From Planctomycetota bacterium (GTDB lineage: Bacteria > Planctomycetota > Phycisphaerae > Sedimentisphaerales > Anaerohalosphaeraceae), in NCBI GenBank assembly GCA_029552545.1, contig JAKPDO010000019.1, positions 62,001 to 126,000 on the forward strand: 64,000 nt of DNA, in the 5' to 3' direction. The position numbers and the translations under genes were made by a program. The notes below the pieces were generated by a model. The model was not told where the DNA came from and did no database searches. It was given only the letters and a program-made list of their open reading frames with translations. Each line of letters starts with the position of its first letter. The first letter of the stretch is position 1. This document shows, in pieces, positions 55,483 through 60,818 of this stretch.

Positions 55483-56252
55483 AAAAGCCGATTCGAATTA
55501 TGCCCTGTCTGGACATGCAGAACGGACGCGTCGTCAAAGGTGTGCATTTTGTCAATATTCGCGATGCCGGCGACCCGGTCGCCTGTGCACAGGCCTACTG
55601 TGAGGCCGGAGCCGATGAGCTGGCCATGCTCGATATTACCGCCACGGTGGAAAACCGCCCGACACTGCTGGAGGTTGTCCGCCGCACGGCACAGGCGGTG
55701 ACGGTTCCTTTTACGGTCGGCGGCGGCATTACGGATACGGCTTCCGCGGAGGCGGTTCTGGAGGCGGGGGCGGACAAAATCTCCGTCAGCAGTGCGGCCT
55801 TCCGAAAACCGTCTGTCATCGGGGAGATGGTCAAGGAGTTCGGCCCCGAGCGCATCACCGTAGCTATCGATGTGGACCGCAATCCGGCTCTGCCTTCCGG
55901 CTACGAGGTCTATATTGACGGCGGCCGCACCGCCACCGGAACCGATGCCCTCGAATGGGCCAAACGCGTGGACGGATTTGGTGTTTCCGTTATCCTGCCG
56001 ACCAGCAAGGCCGCCGACGGGGCCAAGACCGGATATGATTTGCCGCTTATCGAAGCGATTGCACGGAATTGTTCCGCCGAAGTCGTCGCCTCCGGCGGTG
56101 CGGGCACGATGGAGCATTTCTATCAGGCCGTTCAGGCCGGCGCCGCCATCCTTCTGGCGGCTTCCGTCTTCCATTTTCATATAATCGATATTCCCCAGTT
56201 AAAACAGTATTTAAAAAGCAAGGGTGTACCGGTCATTCTGCCGAAAAAATAG
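55479..56252 (+). CDS. hisF: Imidazole glycerol phosphate synthase subunit HisF
   Basis: 257 residues, a TIM barrel that uses ammonia from HisH to form imidazole glycerol phosphate and AICAR. IMPCLDMQNGRVVKG with Asp12, LDITATVENR, FTVGGGI, ADKISVSS, VAIDVDR, VVASGGAGTMEHF and LAASVFHF are typical. The second catalytic aspartate (Asp130 of Thermotoga HisF, in the D-x-D-G motif) is Ala178 here, in TSKAADGAKTGYD. hisH and the other his genes are absent from the window. AGGAGAA ribosome-binding site. Confidence 0.88.
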   Translation: MKKPIRIMPCLDMQNGRVVKGVHFVNIRDAGDPVACAQAYCEAGADELAMLDITATVENRPTLLEVVRRTAQAVTVPFTVGGGITDTASAEAVLEAGADKISVSSAAFRKPSVIGEMVKEFGPERITVAIDVDRNPALPSGYEVYIDGGRTATGTDALEWAKRVDGFGVSVILPTSKAADGAKTGYDLPLIEAIARNCSAEVVASGGAGTMEHFYQAVQAGAAILLAASVFHFHIIDIPQLKQYLKSKGVPVILPKK

Positions 56253-56260
56253 GATTCGAA

Positions 56261-56284
56261 CTCAAAGCCGCCGATAGCTTTGGG
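56261..56284. terminator. Possible terminator hairpin between converging genes
   Basis: CTCAAAGC (56261-56268) and GCTTTGGG (56277-56284) pair over eight positions (one G-U) around an eight-base loop, between the stops of hisF (+) and the pseudopilin (-). A T-run lies further on only in the minus direction, so activity is uncertain. Confidence 0.3.
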
Positions 56285-56285
56285 C

Positions 56286-57140
56286 CTAAAAACAGTAGAT
56301 TTTTTTGAAGAACACCCAGTCTCGGTTCAGGGAAGCATCTAAAATCGTAATTCCGGGCGTTTTGGTGTACCACAGGATTGCGGTGCCTCCCTCGCGGGCC
56401 TTCTGTTCATTCCATTTGAGCCATTTAATCGTGTCTATTTCTTTGAAGGAGTACGGTTCCGCGTGGCAGTCTGCAAAGCCGAGCACACAGCCGTTGGCAT
56501 GCCAATACGCAAGCGGGTCGCTGAAATTGGGTGTCGTAGCCCCGCCCGGCTGGCCCGAAGGTTTGGTTCCCAGAAGGACCCACGTGCCGATGTTAAATCC
56601 GCGAGGATCGGCCTCCTCTACCACCAGCAGCCGAAGGGACGGCTGACGCAGTTCACTGATTTTTTTGGCTGTCGGTCCGTACCAAAGCAGGTCGCTGCCG
56701 GAAGTGCTGCCGTTGACCATTTGACTGAATGAATAAGTTCGGAAGCCCCCTTGCAGAAAACTCTGTCGATTGTCCTTGGGGCAATGATAAACATCCTCAT
56801 TTTGAAGATAGGGCCACAACGTTCCGGCTCGGATTCCCCGGATGCGTCCCTCCAGAGTGTATGGAGAAGGTTCCGCCGTCAGGTCTTCATAGAGAGGATA
56901 ACAGACCCACGGGGAACTGCTGATGGGGCCGGTATAGCCGTGCGGCAGAATCTGGTCATGGTCGTTGGTGTAGTTGTTCGCGGCAATACTGATTTGGCGG
57001 GCGTTGTTCTGGCACACTTTCATAGCCGCGTTGTCCTGAATCTTTTTCAGAGAAGGCAGTAAAATCCCCAGCAGCAATGCGATGATGGCAATGACAACCA
57101 GCAGTTCAATCAGCGTGAAGGCCCGACCGGATGTCTTCAT
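56286..57140 (-). CDS. Prepilin-type protein with H-x9-DG-like region
   Basis: 284 residues. Prepilin motif RAFTLIELLVVIAIIALLLGILLPSL is followed by CQNNARQISIAANNYTNDHDQ, the usual pattern of planctomycete pseudopilins. Near the C-terminus HANGCVLGFADCHAEPY corresponds to the H-x9-DG signature. ATG 57140 is preferred to 57146 because AGGAG (57152-57148) is seven bases from it and only one base from the other. It is preceded by a clear promoter and a 12-base palindrome. Surface or secretion role unknown. Confidence 0.85.
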   Translation of the reverse strand: MKTSGRAFTLIELLVVIAIIALLLGILLPSLKKIQDNAAMKVCQNNARQISIAANNYTNDHDQILPHGYTGPISSSPWVCYPLYEDLTAEPSPYTLEGRIRGIRAGTLWPYLQNEDVYHCPKDNRQSFLQGGFRTYSFSQMVNGSTSGSDLLWYGPTAKKISELRQPSLRLLVVEEADPRGFNIGTWVLLGTKPSGQPGGATTPNFSDPLAYWHANGCVLGFADCHAEPYSFKEIDTIKWLKWNEQKAREGGTAILWYTKTPGITILDASLNRDWVFFKKIYCF

Positions 57141-57185
57141 CTTCATTCTCCTAAAAGAGAGCGATGAAAACCGCCCCTTTTTGCA

Positions 57186-57226
57186 TCTATACCATCATTT
57201 TTATAAAAAAACAAGCAAATATTTGC
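57186..57226 (-). promoter_or_regulatory. Pseudopilin promoter with upstream palindrome
   Basis: On the minus strand: -35 TTGTTT (57214-57209), 17-base spacer, -10 TATAGA (57191-57186). Directly upstream of the -35 box is the perfect palindrome GCAAATATTTGC (57215-57226), a possible operator. The rest of the spacer to 57465 holds nothing I can name. Confidence 0.5.
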
Positions 57227-57465
57227 GGTTTTTGAAAAAGGGTTTCTGTACAAATGAACTCTTTTTTCGCTCGGCCCGGCTTGCTTTTTCTTATTGCGTC
57301 TTTGGCTTTTTATAGGACATTTAGAAGTCACGTGTTTATAAGCACTTCCGCCGAGAGGAAAACAGGTTATCTGCACTTCTTTTTTGGCCGATGGATTCAG
57401 AAAGACCTCGATGCCGAAGACCTTATCGGAGCATCGCACAAACTGAGGATAGAGAAAATCCAGAT

Positions 57466-58509
57466 ATGGCTGCCGTAAGCCGCTCATCTCGAACAGGGCC
57501 GATTCTGATTCCGGAGCTGGAACTGGAACACTTTCAGCCGCCGGTTTCGGAGGCCGGTCCGGTCCGCCTTCCGGTCGGCTCCGTTCAATTTGGATGGGTA
57601 GGGGCCGGAGCGGCCGGCTGCCGTCTTGCCGAATGGTTTTATCGGCTCGGTTATCGTAAGACGATTGCCGTCAGTGCGGATGAAAAGCATCTCAGAACGC
57701 TCAATCTTCCGGACAGACAAAAATGTCTGTGGCCGGCTGCTCTTCCCAAACGCCTTCGCTTCAGCAGTCCGAAGGAATCTCCCCGCACCATCGGGCGGGA
57801 TTTATTCGGGAGAATGGAAGAGATCTTTGGGGAAGATGCAGATTTTCTGATGCTGTGCCTGTCAGAGGAGGAATCGGAAAAGGGCGGTTTGGTTTGTTCC
57901 CTGATGGATGTGGTAAACAGCTATGCCCGCCTGCTCGGTTTTCGACGTCCGGGTCGGACCGCGGGCGTTTTTTTGCTCGAATCGCAGCATCTTCGGAGCA
58001 ATTTTCACGGGAGTATCCGGCCTATGGTGGCGGCCGGTTCGCAGGTCGGCGGCGGACGCAGACAGGCGAATGAGGATTTCGTTCGCCGCCATGCGGAACT
58101 GTTTGCCCTGTTCAATCGGCTCAGCGCCCAGCCGACGCCTTATCTGACATTTGATTCGATGGATTATCTGGATGTCCTGACGGCGGGCGGCTGGACGGTG
58201 ATGGGAGAAAGCCGGCTGTCTGAACCGCCCGACCGAAGCAGCATTTCCCGAGCGGTCCGGCAGGCACTCGAACAATGCACGCTCGGCGGCCGATTCTCCC
58301 TGAAGCAGACACAGGCAGCGGCCTGCCTGATGGTTGGCGGACAGGAGATGATGGCCGATATTCCGGGTCTGCCGGATGTGCTGCTGTATGGCTTCGATGT
58401 CCTGACGGCCCTGCTCGGACGAGCCCGCGTGCATCGAGGCATTTACGAGGACCAGGACACCTCCCTTCGCATTTATGTCCTCCTGAGCGGTCTGCAGCCG
58501 CAGTCCTGA
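57466..58509 (+). CDS. Divergent FtsZ/tubulin-like protein
   Basis: 347 residues. FGWVGAGAAGCRLAEWFYRLGY (42-63) resembles the nucleotide-binding N-terminus of FtsZ/CetZ proteins, followed by a strand and a 'VSADEKHLRTL' segment in the place of the VNTDxxxL motif. LTAGGWTVMGES (238-249) resembles the C-terminal sheet (SGGxAxMGxG) and RVHRGIYEDQDTSLRIYVLLSGL a late strand pair. The tubulin T4 loop GGGTGSG is not kept; SEEESEKGGLVCS lies there. GTP binding or polymerisation is therefore doubtful. The frame is open to 57391; ATG 57466 is a guess. No partner gene identifies a process. Confidence 0.5.
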   Translation: MAAVSRSSRTGPILIPELELEHFQPPVSEAGPVRLPVGSVQFGWVGAGAAGCRLAEWFYRLGYRKTIAVSADEKHLRTLNLPDRQKCLWPAALPKRLRFSSPKESPRTIGRDLFGRMEEIFGEDADFLMLCLSEEESEKGGLVCSLMDVVNSYARLLGFRRPGRTAGVFLLESQHLRSNFHGSIRPMVAAGSQVGGGRRQANEDFVRRHAELFALFNRLSAQPTPYLTFDSMDYLDVLTAGGWTVMGESRLSEPPDRSSISRAVRQALEQCTLGGRFSLKQTQAAACLMVGGQEMMADIPGLPDVLLYGFDVLTALLGRARVHRGIYEDQDTSLRIYVLLSGLQPQS

Positions 58510-58580
58510 GCTGTTTTCTCCTCTTGTTTCTTTTCTTTCAAGCGGATAATCTGTCCGTTCGTTCTTTTCAGGAGAAGATA

Positions 58581-59030
58581 ATGCGTGCGGTTGTTCAGCG
58601 TGTTCAGCGGGCCGTCTGCCGGGTGGATGGGCAAATCACCGGACAGATTCAGCAGGGGCTTTTGGTCTTTGTCGGCATCGGGGCGGAGGATGCCGATGCA
58701 GATGCGGTTTATCTGGCCGACAAGATTGCACATCTTCGGGTGTTTGAAGACTCCGACGGACGGATGAATCTGGATGTGCAGCAGGTCAGCGGCGGCATCC
58801 TTCTGATCAGTCAGTTTACGCTATACGGCGACTGTCGCAAAGGCCGCCGGCCGGATTTTACCGCCGCCGCAGGCCCGGAGAAGGCCCGACAAATGTATGA
58901 ACAATTCATCGAACTGCTTCGGGTGAAAGGCCTGACGGTTCAGACCGGTATTTTTGCGGCCATGATGGAAATCGACTGTGTTCAGGATGGACCGGTGACG
59001 ATTCTGCTGGACAGCCGCCGACTCTTTTGA
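58581..59030 (+). CDS. dtd: D-aminoacyl-tRNA deacylase
   Basis: 149 residues. Removes D-amino acids from mischarged tRNA. MRAVVQRVQRAVCRVDG, LVFVGIG, LLISQFTLYGD (catalytic Thr) and the cross-subunit GPVTILLD motif are intact. AGGAGAAG ribosome-binding site fixes ATG 58581; the overlapping longer frame upstream belongs to the shadow of the tubulin-like gene. Confidence 0.95.
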   Translation: MRAVVQRVQRAVCRVDGQITGQIQQGLLVFVGIGAEDADADAVYLADKIAHLRVFEDSDGRMNLDVQQVSGGILLISQFTLYGDCRKGRRPDFTAAAGPEKARQMYEQFIELLRVKGLTVQTGIFAAMMEIDCVQDGPVTILLDSRRLF

Positions 59031-59032
59031 TT

Positions 59033-59308
59033 TCAGTATGTGATGCGAAAATCTTTCCAGTTCGGGTTATAGACCATCGGGCTGATTTGCTTGTCCCGCA
59101 GATATCCCCTGAAATGCTCGCTGATTTCATCCAGGCAGCCCTGAACGGCTTCGGGGCTTCCCTGGAAGACCGCTTCCACCGTCCCGTCGGGCAGATTTCT
59201 CACCCAGCCGGTCAGGTTGTACCGCTCGGCAATCCGACGGGTCGTATAGCGGAACCCGACTCCCTGCACCCGTCCCGAAAAAATGACATGTTCGGCAATC
59301 GGTTCCAT
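59033..59308 (-). CDS. Acylphosphatase
   Basis: 91 residues. FSGRVQGVGFRYTTRRIAE carries the catalytic Arg20 and GWVRNLPDGTVEAVFQG the catalytic Asn38. It hydrolyses carboxyl-phosphate bonds. It lies one base downstream of the AAA ATPase stop, so the two are cotranscribed; its end faces the end of dtd two bases away. Confidence 0.93.
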   Translation of the reverse strand: MEPIAEHVIFSGRVQGVGFRYTTRRIAERYNLTGWVRNLPDGTVEAVFQGSPEAVQGCLDEISEHFRGYLRDKQISPMVYNPNWKDFRITY

Positions 59309-59309
59309 C

Positions 59310-60818
59310 TCAATCCGCCCAAATCACACGCCCCTGGGCCCATTGATAAAGGGCTTCCACCCGCTCCCGCATCGTGACCGACAGCGGGACCGTCTTGCGC
59401 ACCGATTCGAGGAGAAGGTCTGTATCCACATCTTTTTTCTGGTGAAAGGCCTTGTACAGAGCCGAGAGAACGGCCTGCTCAATCTCCGAGCCGCTGAATC
59501 CTTCGGCCGCGTCCGCCAGGGCTTCCAGGTCAAACTCTTCCGGCTTCCGCTTGCGTTTTTTCAGATGAATCGCAAAAATCTCCCGCCGTACCTCTTTGTC
59601 GGGCAGGCCGACAAAGAAGATTTCATCAAAGCGGCCCTTGCGCAGCAGTTCCGGCGGCAGGGCCTCAATATCATTGGCCGTAGCCACCAGAAACACCGGC
59701 TGCTTGTGTTCCTGCATCCAGGTCAGCAGCGTTGCAAACATCCGTTTGCTCAGGCCGCCGTCCGTGCTTTGGCTGGCGGCGGAGGCAAACGCCTTTTCAA
59801 TCTCATCAATCCAAAGAATCGCCGGCGACATCGCCTCAATCTGACGCAGCGCCTTTCGCAGGTTGTTTTCCGATTCGCCGATGTACTTGTTGTAAAGGGT
59901 TCCGCAGTCGAGCCGAAAGAGCGGCTGACGCCAGGCCGCCGCGATGGCCTTGGCACACAAACTCTTCCCCGCTCCCTGCACGCCGAGGATGAGAATCCCT
60001 CGCGGCGGAGTCAATCCGAATTCGGCTGCCTGGGGGCTGAAGGCCTTTTCACGGGTTGTCAGCCATTGTTTTAAGTTTTTCATCCCGCCGATTTCGTCCA
60101 GCGTCAGGGGGGCCTCGACGGATTCAAGCAGGGCGTCGGCTTCCAGCAGACGGCGTTTGCCTGCAATAATCCGATTGACATCCTCATCATCCAGCCGGTG
60201 ATCTCCCGCTACGGCCTCCTCCACCACACGGCGGGCCTGGCGAATCGAAAGCCCCCGCAGATTCCGAATGATGGCTTTTAGCCCTTCTTTGCTTAGACCG
60301 ATTTCCAGCGGAGTTTTGTTGTGGATTTGACGCAGGGTGTTCCGAAAAATATTCTCCAACTCTTCCTCACTCGGCAGCGACAGTTCAAACCGCCGGCTGT
60401 AGCTGCGGATGCATTCCGGCAGACAATCCTCCCCGTCAATCAGAATCAGAACGCTCTGATTGAGTTCAACCCGATGAATGGTGTCCCGCAGCATCCGCAG
60501 GATCAGATGAGACTGGAGATATCTGCCCAAATCCAGTGCAACGCAGAACGTGCGGGAAGGCAGGTTGCAGAACTCCTTGAGCCCTTCTTCCGGAGACGGG
60601 TTTTCCGTTTTGCCCCCCAGCACCGGATGCAGGCCGTCTCGGCTGCCGCGTCCGGCGGACCAAATCCGCATCTTCCAGTCCAGTTTTTGAGCGGCCTTGC
60701 GAATGAGCTCAAGGGCCTGATGCTCCTCATACGTGACAATCGAAAGGCAGCTGACTCCGCCTTCCACCAGCCGGAGCAGTTCCTGAAGATCATTCATCGC
60801 TGTTTCTGACCTGGCCAT
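59310..60818 (-). CDS. AAA ATPase of the Ycf46 type
   Basis: 502 residues. The N-terminal part (residues 10-225) resembles a degenerate ATPase-like domain, with SCLSIVTYEEHQALELI and SVLILIDGEDCL in Walker-B-like position. The C-terminal AAA domain has GVQGAGKS (279-286), ILWIDEIEKAF (Walker B, 334-344), LVATANDIEALPPELLRKGRFDEIF (sensor and Arg finger) and a lid. This order matches Ycf46-type proteins of cyanobacteria and chloroplasts, whose role is poorly known. A TTGAAT...TACCAT promoter may lie just upstream, about ten bases before the ATG. Confidence 0.82.
   Translation of the reverse strand: MARSETAMNDLQELLRLVEGGVSCLSIVTYEEHQALELIRKAAQKLDWKMRIWSAGRGSRDGLHPVLGGKTENPSPEEGLKEFCNLPSRTFCVALDLGRYLQSHLILRMLRDTIHRVELNQSVLILIDGEDCLPECIRSYSRRFELSLPSEEELENIFRNTLRQIHNKTPLEIGLSKEGLKAIIRNLRGLSIRQARRVVEEAVAGDHRLDDEDVNRIIAGKRRLLEADALLESVEAPLTLDEIGGMKNLKQWLTTREKAFSPQAAEFGLTPPRGILILGVQGAGKSLCAKAIAAAWRQPLFRLDCGTLYNKYIGESENNLRKALRQIEAMSPAILWIDEIEKAFASAASQSTDGGLSKRMFATLLTWMQEHKQPVFLVATANDIEALPPELLRKGRFDEIFFVGLPDKEVRREIFAIHLKKRKRKPEEFDLEALADAAEGFSGSEIEQAVLSALYKAFHQKKDVDTDLLLESVRKTVPLSVTMRERVEALYQWAQGRVIWAD

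Follow-up and report, generated by a model that had tools for sequence, protein, structure and literature searches.

Among the described members of the tubulin/FtsZ superfamily, the FtsZ of S. aureus (SaFtsZ) displays a composite active site, in which residues D210 and D213 of the T7 loop of the top subunit act on the nucleotide of the bottom subunit (PMC8936486). Planctomycetes are described as lacking FtsZ (PMC5147048; PMC11929135), and FtsZl1 proteins are known from planctomycetes (PMC2875224). In the open-access literature, covered through titles and the beginnings of abstracts, we found no description of the tubulin family presented here, or of a partner with a dead nucleotide pocket.

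The window (the whole stretch of DNA analysed, 64,000 nucleotides, from a planctomycete genome) carries at 57466..58509 (+ strand) an open reading frame of 347 aa, with an ATG start at 57466, a stop codon at 58507-58509 and an alternative in-frame ATG upstream at 57391, which the list of open reading frames takes as the start. The first-pass annotation had placed a degenerate FtsZ/CetZ-like protein here, and both the frame and the N- and C-terminal peptides that it quoted were found in place. Hereafter, B designates this protein and its orthologs, A the intact paralog, and G000 the genome of the window. B is a degenerate tubulin-superfamily protein of TubZ/FtsZ fold, paralogous to the intact TubZ-like protein A of the same genome, and by sequence a putative pseudo-GTPase. 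The two G000 proteins match in two stretches (E 1.4e-34 with 45% identity, and E 6.8e-18 with 29%). A, the sole paralog of B in G000, is a protein of 441 aa encoded on another contig (C41); it passes the Pfam Tubulin cut-off (PF00091, 37.8 vs 33 bits), has an intact T4 loop (GAGGGTGGGS) and a Lys-rich N-terminal tail, and lies outside any evident prophage, surrounded by cell genes that we take to encode signal peptidases and an HU-like protein. As a single-sequence query, B gave zero matches in Pfam, NCBIfam, PHROGs and PADLOC. A profile restricted to the five degenerate orthologs aligned by hhalign with one of ten intact viral relatives at a probability of 100% (E 2.9e-61, 336 columns), and the same profile searched against PDB sequences returned no tubulin and two matches up to E 1 (an aminotransferase at 0.17, and one at 0.24). 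Since B alone has no domain match and the degenerate-only profile finds no PDB tubulin, the link from B to the tubulins runs via an intermediate family. Homology to A and the alignment to viral members place B in the tubulin/FtsZ superfamily by descent, and the resemblance is, as judged from these alignments, homology rather than chance.

The AF2 model of B (mean pLDDT 79.5, pTM 0.80) is predicted to adopt the two-domain tubulin/FtsZ fold, from an alignment holding 24 non-degenerate rows beyond the five degenerate orthologs; part of the fold is therefore lent by those rows, and the hhalign comparison of the degenerate-only profile constitutes an independent sequence test of it. The model matched TubZ (2xkb; Z 26.9, 298 aligned, 3.8 Å), CetZ2 (4b45; Z 25.5) and FtsZ (Z about 22), the matches spanning from about residue 23-40 through the end, and the model of A matched TubZ 4ei7 with Z 37.3 (335 aligned, 2.6 Å). 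By predicted fold, B is nearer to TubZ/CetZ than to FtsZ; the likeness first claimed was thus retained as regards a planctomycete protein of tubulin/FtsZ fold whose nucleotide pocket is broken, and was shifted away from FtsZ. Membership in another Rossmann family, which together with a missing tubulin C-terminal domain would have refuted the first-pass annotation, was considered and rejected: PDB sequences gave no significant match, neither with the single protein (a de novo protein at E 1.6) nor with the degenerate-only profile (the above at 0.17 and 0.24), all 50 fold matches listed in each search were TubZ, CetZ or FtsZ chains, and the C-terminal domain was among the best-predicted regions of the B model.

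The T4 position of B (57859..57891, + strand) reads LSEEESEKGGL in the motif alignment, as against FGAGGGTGGGS in A; the GGGTG[SG]G signature of functional tubulin/FtsZ GTPases is absent from the window protein, as had been noticed from the sequence, and was lost in all five degenerate orthologs. This initial description understated the decay, as T2, T3, T5, T6 and the C-terminal helix were lost too: the five orthologs lack the T2 Asn-Thr, T3 Gly-Ala-Gly, T4 GGGT, T5 Thr/Glu, T6 Asn and H7 Asn, and B shows deletions around T5-T6 and is devoid of the C-terminal helix found after IIGGLDFP in A. Conversely, all five keep three glycines of T1, the two aspartates of T7 and, towards the C-terminus, the HRGxYED residues. 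By motif alignment, T1 of the window protein (57601..57621, +) remains as GAGAAGC, with three of the four glycines of GSGQCGG in A. Its T7 region, FDSMDYLDVLTAGG (58150..58191, +), holds D230 and D233 at the positions of the FtsZ catalytic aspartates, as taken from the family profile aligned to M. jannaschii FtsZ; via the NxDxxD pattern they can be equated with D210 and D213 of SaFtsZ, and where SaFtsZ has its T7 Asn, N208, both A and B carry Ser or Thr. The C-terminal domain signature HRGIYED (58432..58452, +) is invariant across the motif-table rows that have letters there, save for one substitution each in G001_B and G007_B. When 116 columns conserved at ≥95% in 32 intact rows (28 A, 4 B) were considered, the window protein kept 26 of 70 in its N-terminal half vs 34 of 46 in its C-terminal half (Fisher p 1.3e-4), and the direction was the same in all five degenerate orthologs (p 5.4e-5 to 0.023), in tests whose columns and relatives are not independent. 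G007_B and the lid-fused B copies described below showed no significant bias (p 0.11 to 0.64).

Six species of the window genus carry B with its frame open, the other five copies being 41-92% identical to the window protein, and T4 was lost outright in five of the six. Among G000, G001, G003 and G004, the NG86 dN/dS of B was 0.18-0.24 (four pairs), strongly below 1, vs 0.02-0.06 for A, and YN00 gave 0.15-0.33 for B. The nonsynonymous share of changes in B was 0.38-0.54 vs 0.75 expected (p ≤8.2e-10 in the six pairs of the four species), in counts which, like those of the N-terminal motif, use stop-to-stop frames and may include a few pre-start codons. By these measures, B is constrained, and less so than A; because it evolves faster than A, the constraint could concern the fold alone. 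A remnant decaying to a pseudogene, one of the options in the first-pass annotation, would agree with this faster evolution, with the deletions around T5-T6 and with a decay that advances through the genus, GGRTGGAG still being present in G002_B and nothing of it in G000_B; yet the frame stands open in six species and purifying selection indicates that B is not a recent wreck, which makes this reading very improbable.

A family-profile search of 161 genomes of the order (66 of them ≥90% complete and ≤5% contaminated) gave matches in 28; contigs of the wider genome set were scanned with B only, and the A2 query covered 391 phylum genomes. Distant relatives were observed in other planctomycete families at L115 (G252:C45:180302-181057) and L062 (G479), with E 6e-20 and 4e-4; these sit in open frames of 820 and 702 aa and possibly represent other FtsZ-like groups. 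No FtsZ was found in the 161 genomes of the order by a Pfam Tubulin search: the 27 matches over the cut-off corresponded to A and B genes by comparison of positions, one further match (G507) fell below it, and 13 of 14 control genomes gave a match.

The motif table comprises 29 A rows and 15 B rows, without the split A of G527 (two contigs, T4 intact) and a truncated B piece of G087 (L165). T4 is intact in all 28 A rows with letters there (the G009 row has none), whereas among the 14 B rows with letters it is intact in four (G012, G013, G014, G022) and altered in ten; at T7, none of the 14 B copies with letters there lacks either aspartate. In the trees, from which the short G009 and G099_B were left out (and from the rooted tree also G022_A and G013_A), B sequences fell into three groups. 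The first is one clade (100/100) uniting the window gene with the four intact-T4 copies, along which T4 was lost stepwise, from intact through the G002 form to nothing; the second is a clade (100/99) from another family (G095, G501, G508), with the T4 Thr changed to Ala; and the third is G007_B, whose placement differs between the two trees, so that a third loss of T4 rests on a long branch.

A and B are arranged in tandem in seven genomes (G007, G014, G022, G095, G099, G501, G508), on the same strand, A first and within about 300 bp, B being readable only at its start in G099; in the window genus they lie on separate contigs. These tandems would suit an obligate heterodimer or an alternating filament of A and B, comparable to alpha/beta-tubulin with one silent site, and the milder pocket changes of some B copies (T4 Thr to Ala) might still permit nucleotide binding. 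However, the window protein has lost most nucleotide-loop residues together with its C-terminal helix, and its top face seems ill suited to carrying a regular lattice, which renders such an assembly improbable.

Our preferred reading, to which we assign a probability of about 45%, is that B may be the pseudo-GTPase subunit of a two-component, phage-related TubZ-like system, docking with its T7 loop at the GTP end of A so as to cap or tune A filaments. A, as its intact loops suggest, would bind GTP and form head-to-tail filaments. On its 'top' face, B has lost the pocket by sequence; on its 'bottom' face, it has retained the C-terminal domain and a T7 loop in which both aspartates stand. An A subunit would accordingly be able to receive B only from above: the T7 loop of B would complete the GTPase site of A, and B would present no pocket to a next subunit. 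The result might be capped A filaments, filaments made shorter because B triggers hydrolysis, or A held in a dimer; the polymerisation of A, the binding of B to A and the capping or tuning of filaments by B are what we infer from these features. The capping model is supported by the retention of the T7 aspartates in all 14 B copies read, by the change of T4 in ten of the 14 B copies and in none of the 28 A copies, by the tandem genes in seven genomes, and by the lopsided loss, the purifying selection on B and the composite active site of FtsZ. It is weakened by the location of A and B on different contigs in the window genus, by the Ser/Thr at the T7 Asn, by the faster evolution of B, by the lack of a significant N/C bias in G007_B and the lid-fused copies, by the non-degenerate rows behind the B model and by the long branch on which a third T4 loss depends. 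From the three roles initially considered for this protein, namely regulator, remnant or new filament type, that of a regulator, as partner of intact A, fits B best; purifying selection among four species argues against a remnant, and B is unlikely to be a new filament type in its own right, since a pocketless subunit presumably could not form the usual head-to-tail GTP interface with itself.

Features outside the GTPase core bear on a different explanation, in which B, still folded as a tubulin, would no longer take part in the filament and would serve as a scaffold or adaptor to bind another partner shared with A (for example a linked AAA+ ATPase, a membrane factor or a DNA factor) through its C-terminal domain and the IPxLxLE motif. 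In the window protein, this N-terminal motif reads IPELELEHF (residues 15-23; 57508..57534, +), and its pattern occurs in all six B rows of the window genus, in 11 of the 15 B rows overall and in 26 of the 29 A rows; a looser pattern was found in 78 of 80 viral proteins. IPELELE is kept in all five degenerate orthologs, and its region has low confidence in the B model, as expected of a docking peptide; in the capping model, too, the motif may tether A and B to a common partner. The wide conservation of the motif in A, B and viral proteins, the loss from B of the C-terminal helix of A, and the presence of AAA+ ATPase orthologs near A or B in eight genomes thus speak for an adaptor. Nevertheless, the pattern was missed in four of 15 B rows (G013_B, G014_B, G022_B and G508_B), three of these with intact T4, and an adaptor has no obvious need for both T7 aspartates, which are nonetheless retained in every B copy with letters there. 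We consider the adaptor unlikely, though it deserves consideration.

The ATPase in question, a possible partner of 502 aa encoded at 59310..60818 (− strand), was singled out by its conserved proximity to A or B: orthologs lie within about 3 kb of B in G000, G001, G003 and G004, or of A in G002, G087, G095 and G501. Among the 25 largest neighbour clusters, it was the sole nameable full-length neighbour common to both taxonomic families, the others being tubulin-gene frames, antisense frames and genes of close relatives, plus a four-genome cluster (G074, G083, G099, G527) and a three-genome cluster. The ATPase occurs in 82 of 161 genomes at E ≤1e-90, including a group of 35-41% identity, with many carriers lacking A; full-length orthologs of about 51-97% identity are present in many genomes of the order. 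In 15 genomes, A coexists with a full-length ortholog (≥53% identity), within about 3 kb of A or B in eight; in the remaining seven, the ATPase and A or B are on separate contigs, two of them under 6 kb. As the eight linked genomes belong to two genera, they represent at most about three independent linkages, and since the ATPase is commoner than A and unlinked elsewhere, and co-occurrence alone proves nothing, we treat it as a lead only; an unfoldase or severing factor of the filament is imaginable. Between B and the ATPase lies a gene (58582..59030, +) that we take to be dtd, for D-aminoacyl-tRNA deacylase, adjoining B in four of the five other genus genomes and about 4 kb from B in G002. 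Upstream of B, the frame at 56286-57146 (−) presumably encodes a type IV pilin-like protein, given its prepilin-like N-terminus, and no RNA feature was detected in window positions 56000-60000 at the gathering threshold.

Most A rows carry a long N-terminal tail, whose last 60 residues are 23-40% Lys+Arg with few acidic residues; the exceptions without such a long tail are the A of G099, the C379 copy in G087 and, in G095 and G501, the tandem copies. Lys/Arg/Thr-rich repeat tails of up to about 280 aa were also observed before A tubulin domains at L111:2-1360, L107:811-2748 and L106. The B proteins of G095, G501 and G508 have a C-terminal AAA_lid_14 domain (57-63 bits), that of G501 also bearing a Fis-type HTH_8 domain above the cut-off, an end that we take to resemble the C-terminal end of NtrC-type activators. 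Such lid-fused tubulin-superfamily proteins, with the T4 Thr changed to Ala and, in one, HTH_8 above the cut-off, were noted at L101:7726-9519, L108:6708-8285 and L109:8824-10578. In G095 and G501, a tail-less A is therefore paired with a B having its own likely DNA-binding end, G508 being the exception with a basic-tailed A and a lid-fused B. Taken together, the lid/HTH fusions and the basic tails are suggestive of a DNA-linked role.

With respect to origin, the closest intact relatives outside the order, among the matches listed, are viral: at least 232 stretches in IMG/VR encode a relative, with 47-54% identity to A among the best 80 of these. Within 3 kb of the tubulin gene, 49 of these 80 loci carry a family of proteins of about 523 aa, of which the two members tested were terminase large subunits (phrog_2, E 1.1e-50 and 1.1e-52). 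The viral tubulin-like genes (L167-L246) often lie a few genes upstream of the terminase large subunit. Isolated phages yielded gp138 of phage G only, at 21-22% identity, and an origin from a plasmid or an isolated phage was set aside, the matches being weak (one plasmid record and two records of phage G). The tree was built with 10 viral representatives, drawn from 79 proteins by grouping at 80% identity; L204 was excluded for its interrupted frame. The planctomycete proteins formed one clade (98/99) beside an unresolved viral base, and a rooted tree, whose two outgroups sit on very long branches, nested them among the viral proteins; in view of the long outgroup branches and unresolved base, we make no claim on the direction of transfer between virus and planctomycete. 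A single uptake from a phage would be the simplest reading. A broader scenario, which we regard as decidedly improbable, is that in Phycisphaerae without FtsZ one phage-tubulin uptake gave rise to a chromosomal, DNA-associated cytoskeleton, by way of the basic tail or HTH, with a repeatedly evolved dead-pocket sister as its cap. In that scenario, given the persisting match of the family to viral proteins, the dead sister could act against infecting phages as well, by poisoning their tubulin filaments. An anti-phage system was not favoured by PADLOC, which was null for A and B and gave for the neighbouring ATPase AAA+ matches only (IetA, TRIP13).

Our results indicate that tubulin-fold proteins with an intact pocket, akin to viral tubulins, occur in genomes where no FtsZ was found, and that in several lineages B has altered or lost its own pocket and kept the half of the active site that would act in trans. 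The two halves of the tubulin active site would thus have been separated by natural evolution, and the capping model is directly testable.

Compared with the known systems, FtsZ shares with B the superfamily fold and the T7 DxxD, but the TIGR00065 equivalog cut-off is 295.2 bits, against 50.3 for A and no match for B. Likewise, FtsZl1/Tubulin_2 (PF13809, cut-off 27 bits) scored 20.6 with A and did not match B, and CetZ resembles B in fold only (Z 25.5) and differs by the T4 that B lacks. TubZ, the partition tubulin of plasmids and phages, is the best fold match of both A and B; nonetheless, A reached 20.9 bits against the 26-bit cut-off of TubZ-like_C (PF22453), which B did not match, and four viral relatives tested against it gave 30.3 and 26.6, both passing, 23.6, which fails, and one no match. 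In contrast to TubZ, B is without a nucleotide pocket as judged by sequence, and A is encoded on the chromosome and often bears a Lys/Arg-rich N-terminal tail. As for a TubR partner, clustering of neighbours found no TubR-like gene conserved across A/B loci. The viral tubulin family of IMG/VR, which provides the closest intact relatives found outside the order, shares the identity to A given above, an IPxLxLE-like motif and HRGIYED; it differs in a T4 of GGGSG or SGGSG, seen in seven of ten representatives with the pattern read, and in the acidic N-termini of those read, those of A being basic. ARC3 is a plastid FtsZ-like division regulator. B may be likened to this plant protein by function alone, ARC3 being a regulator of FtsZ-ring assembly (PMC13335998).
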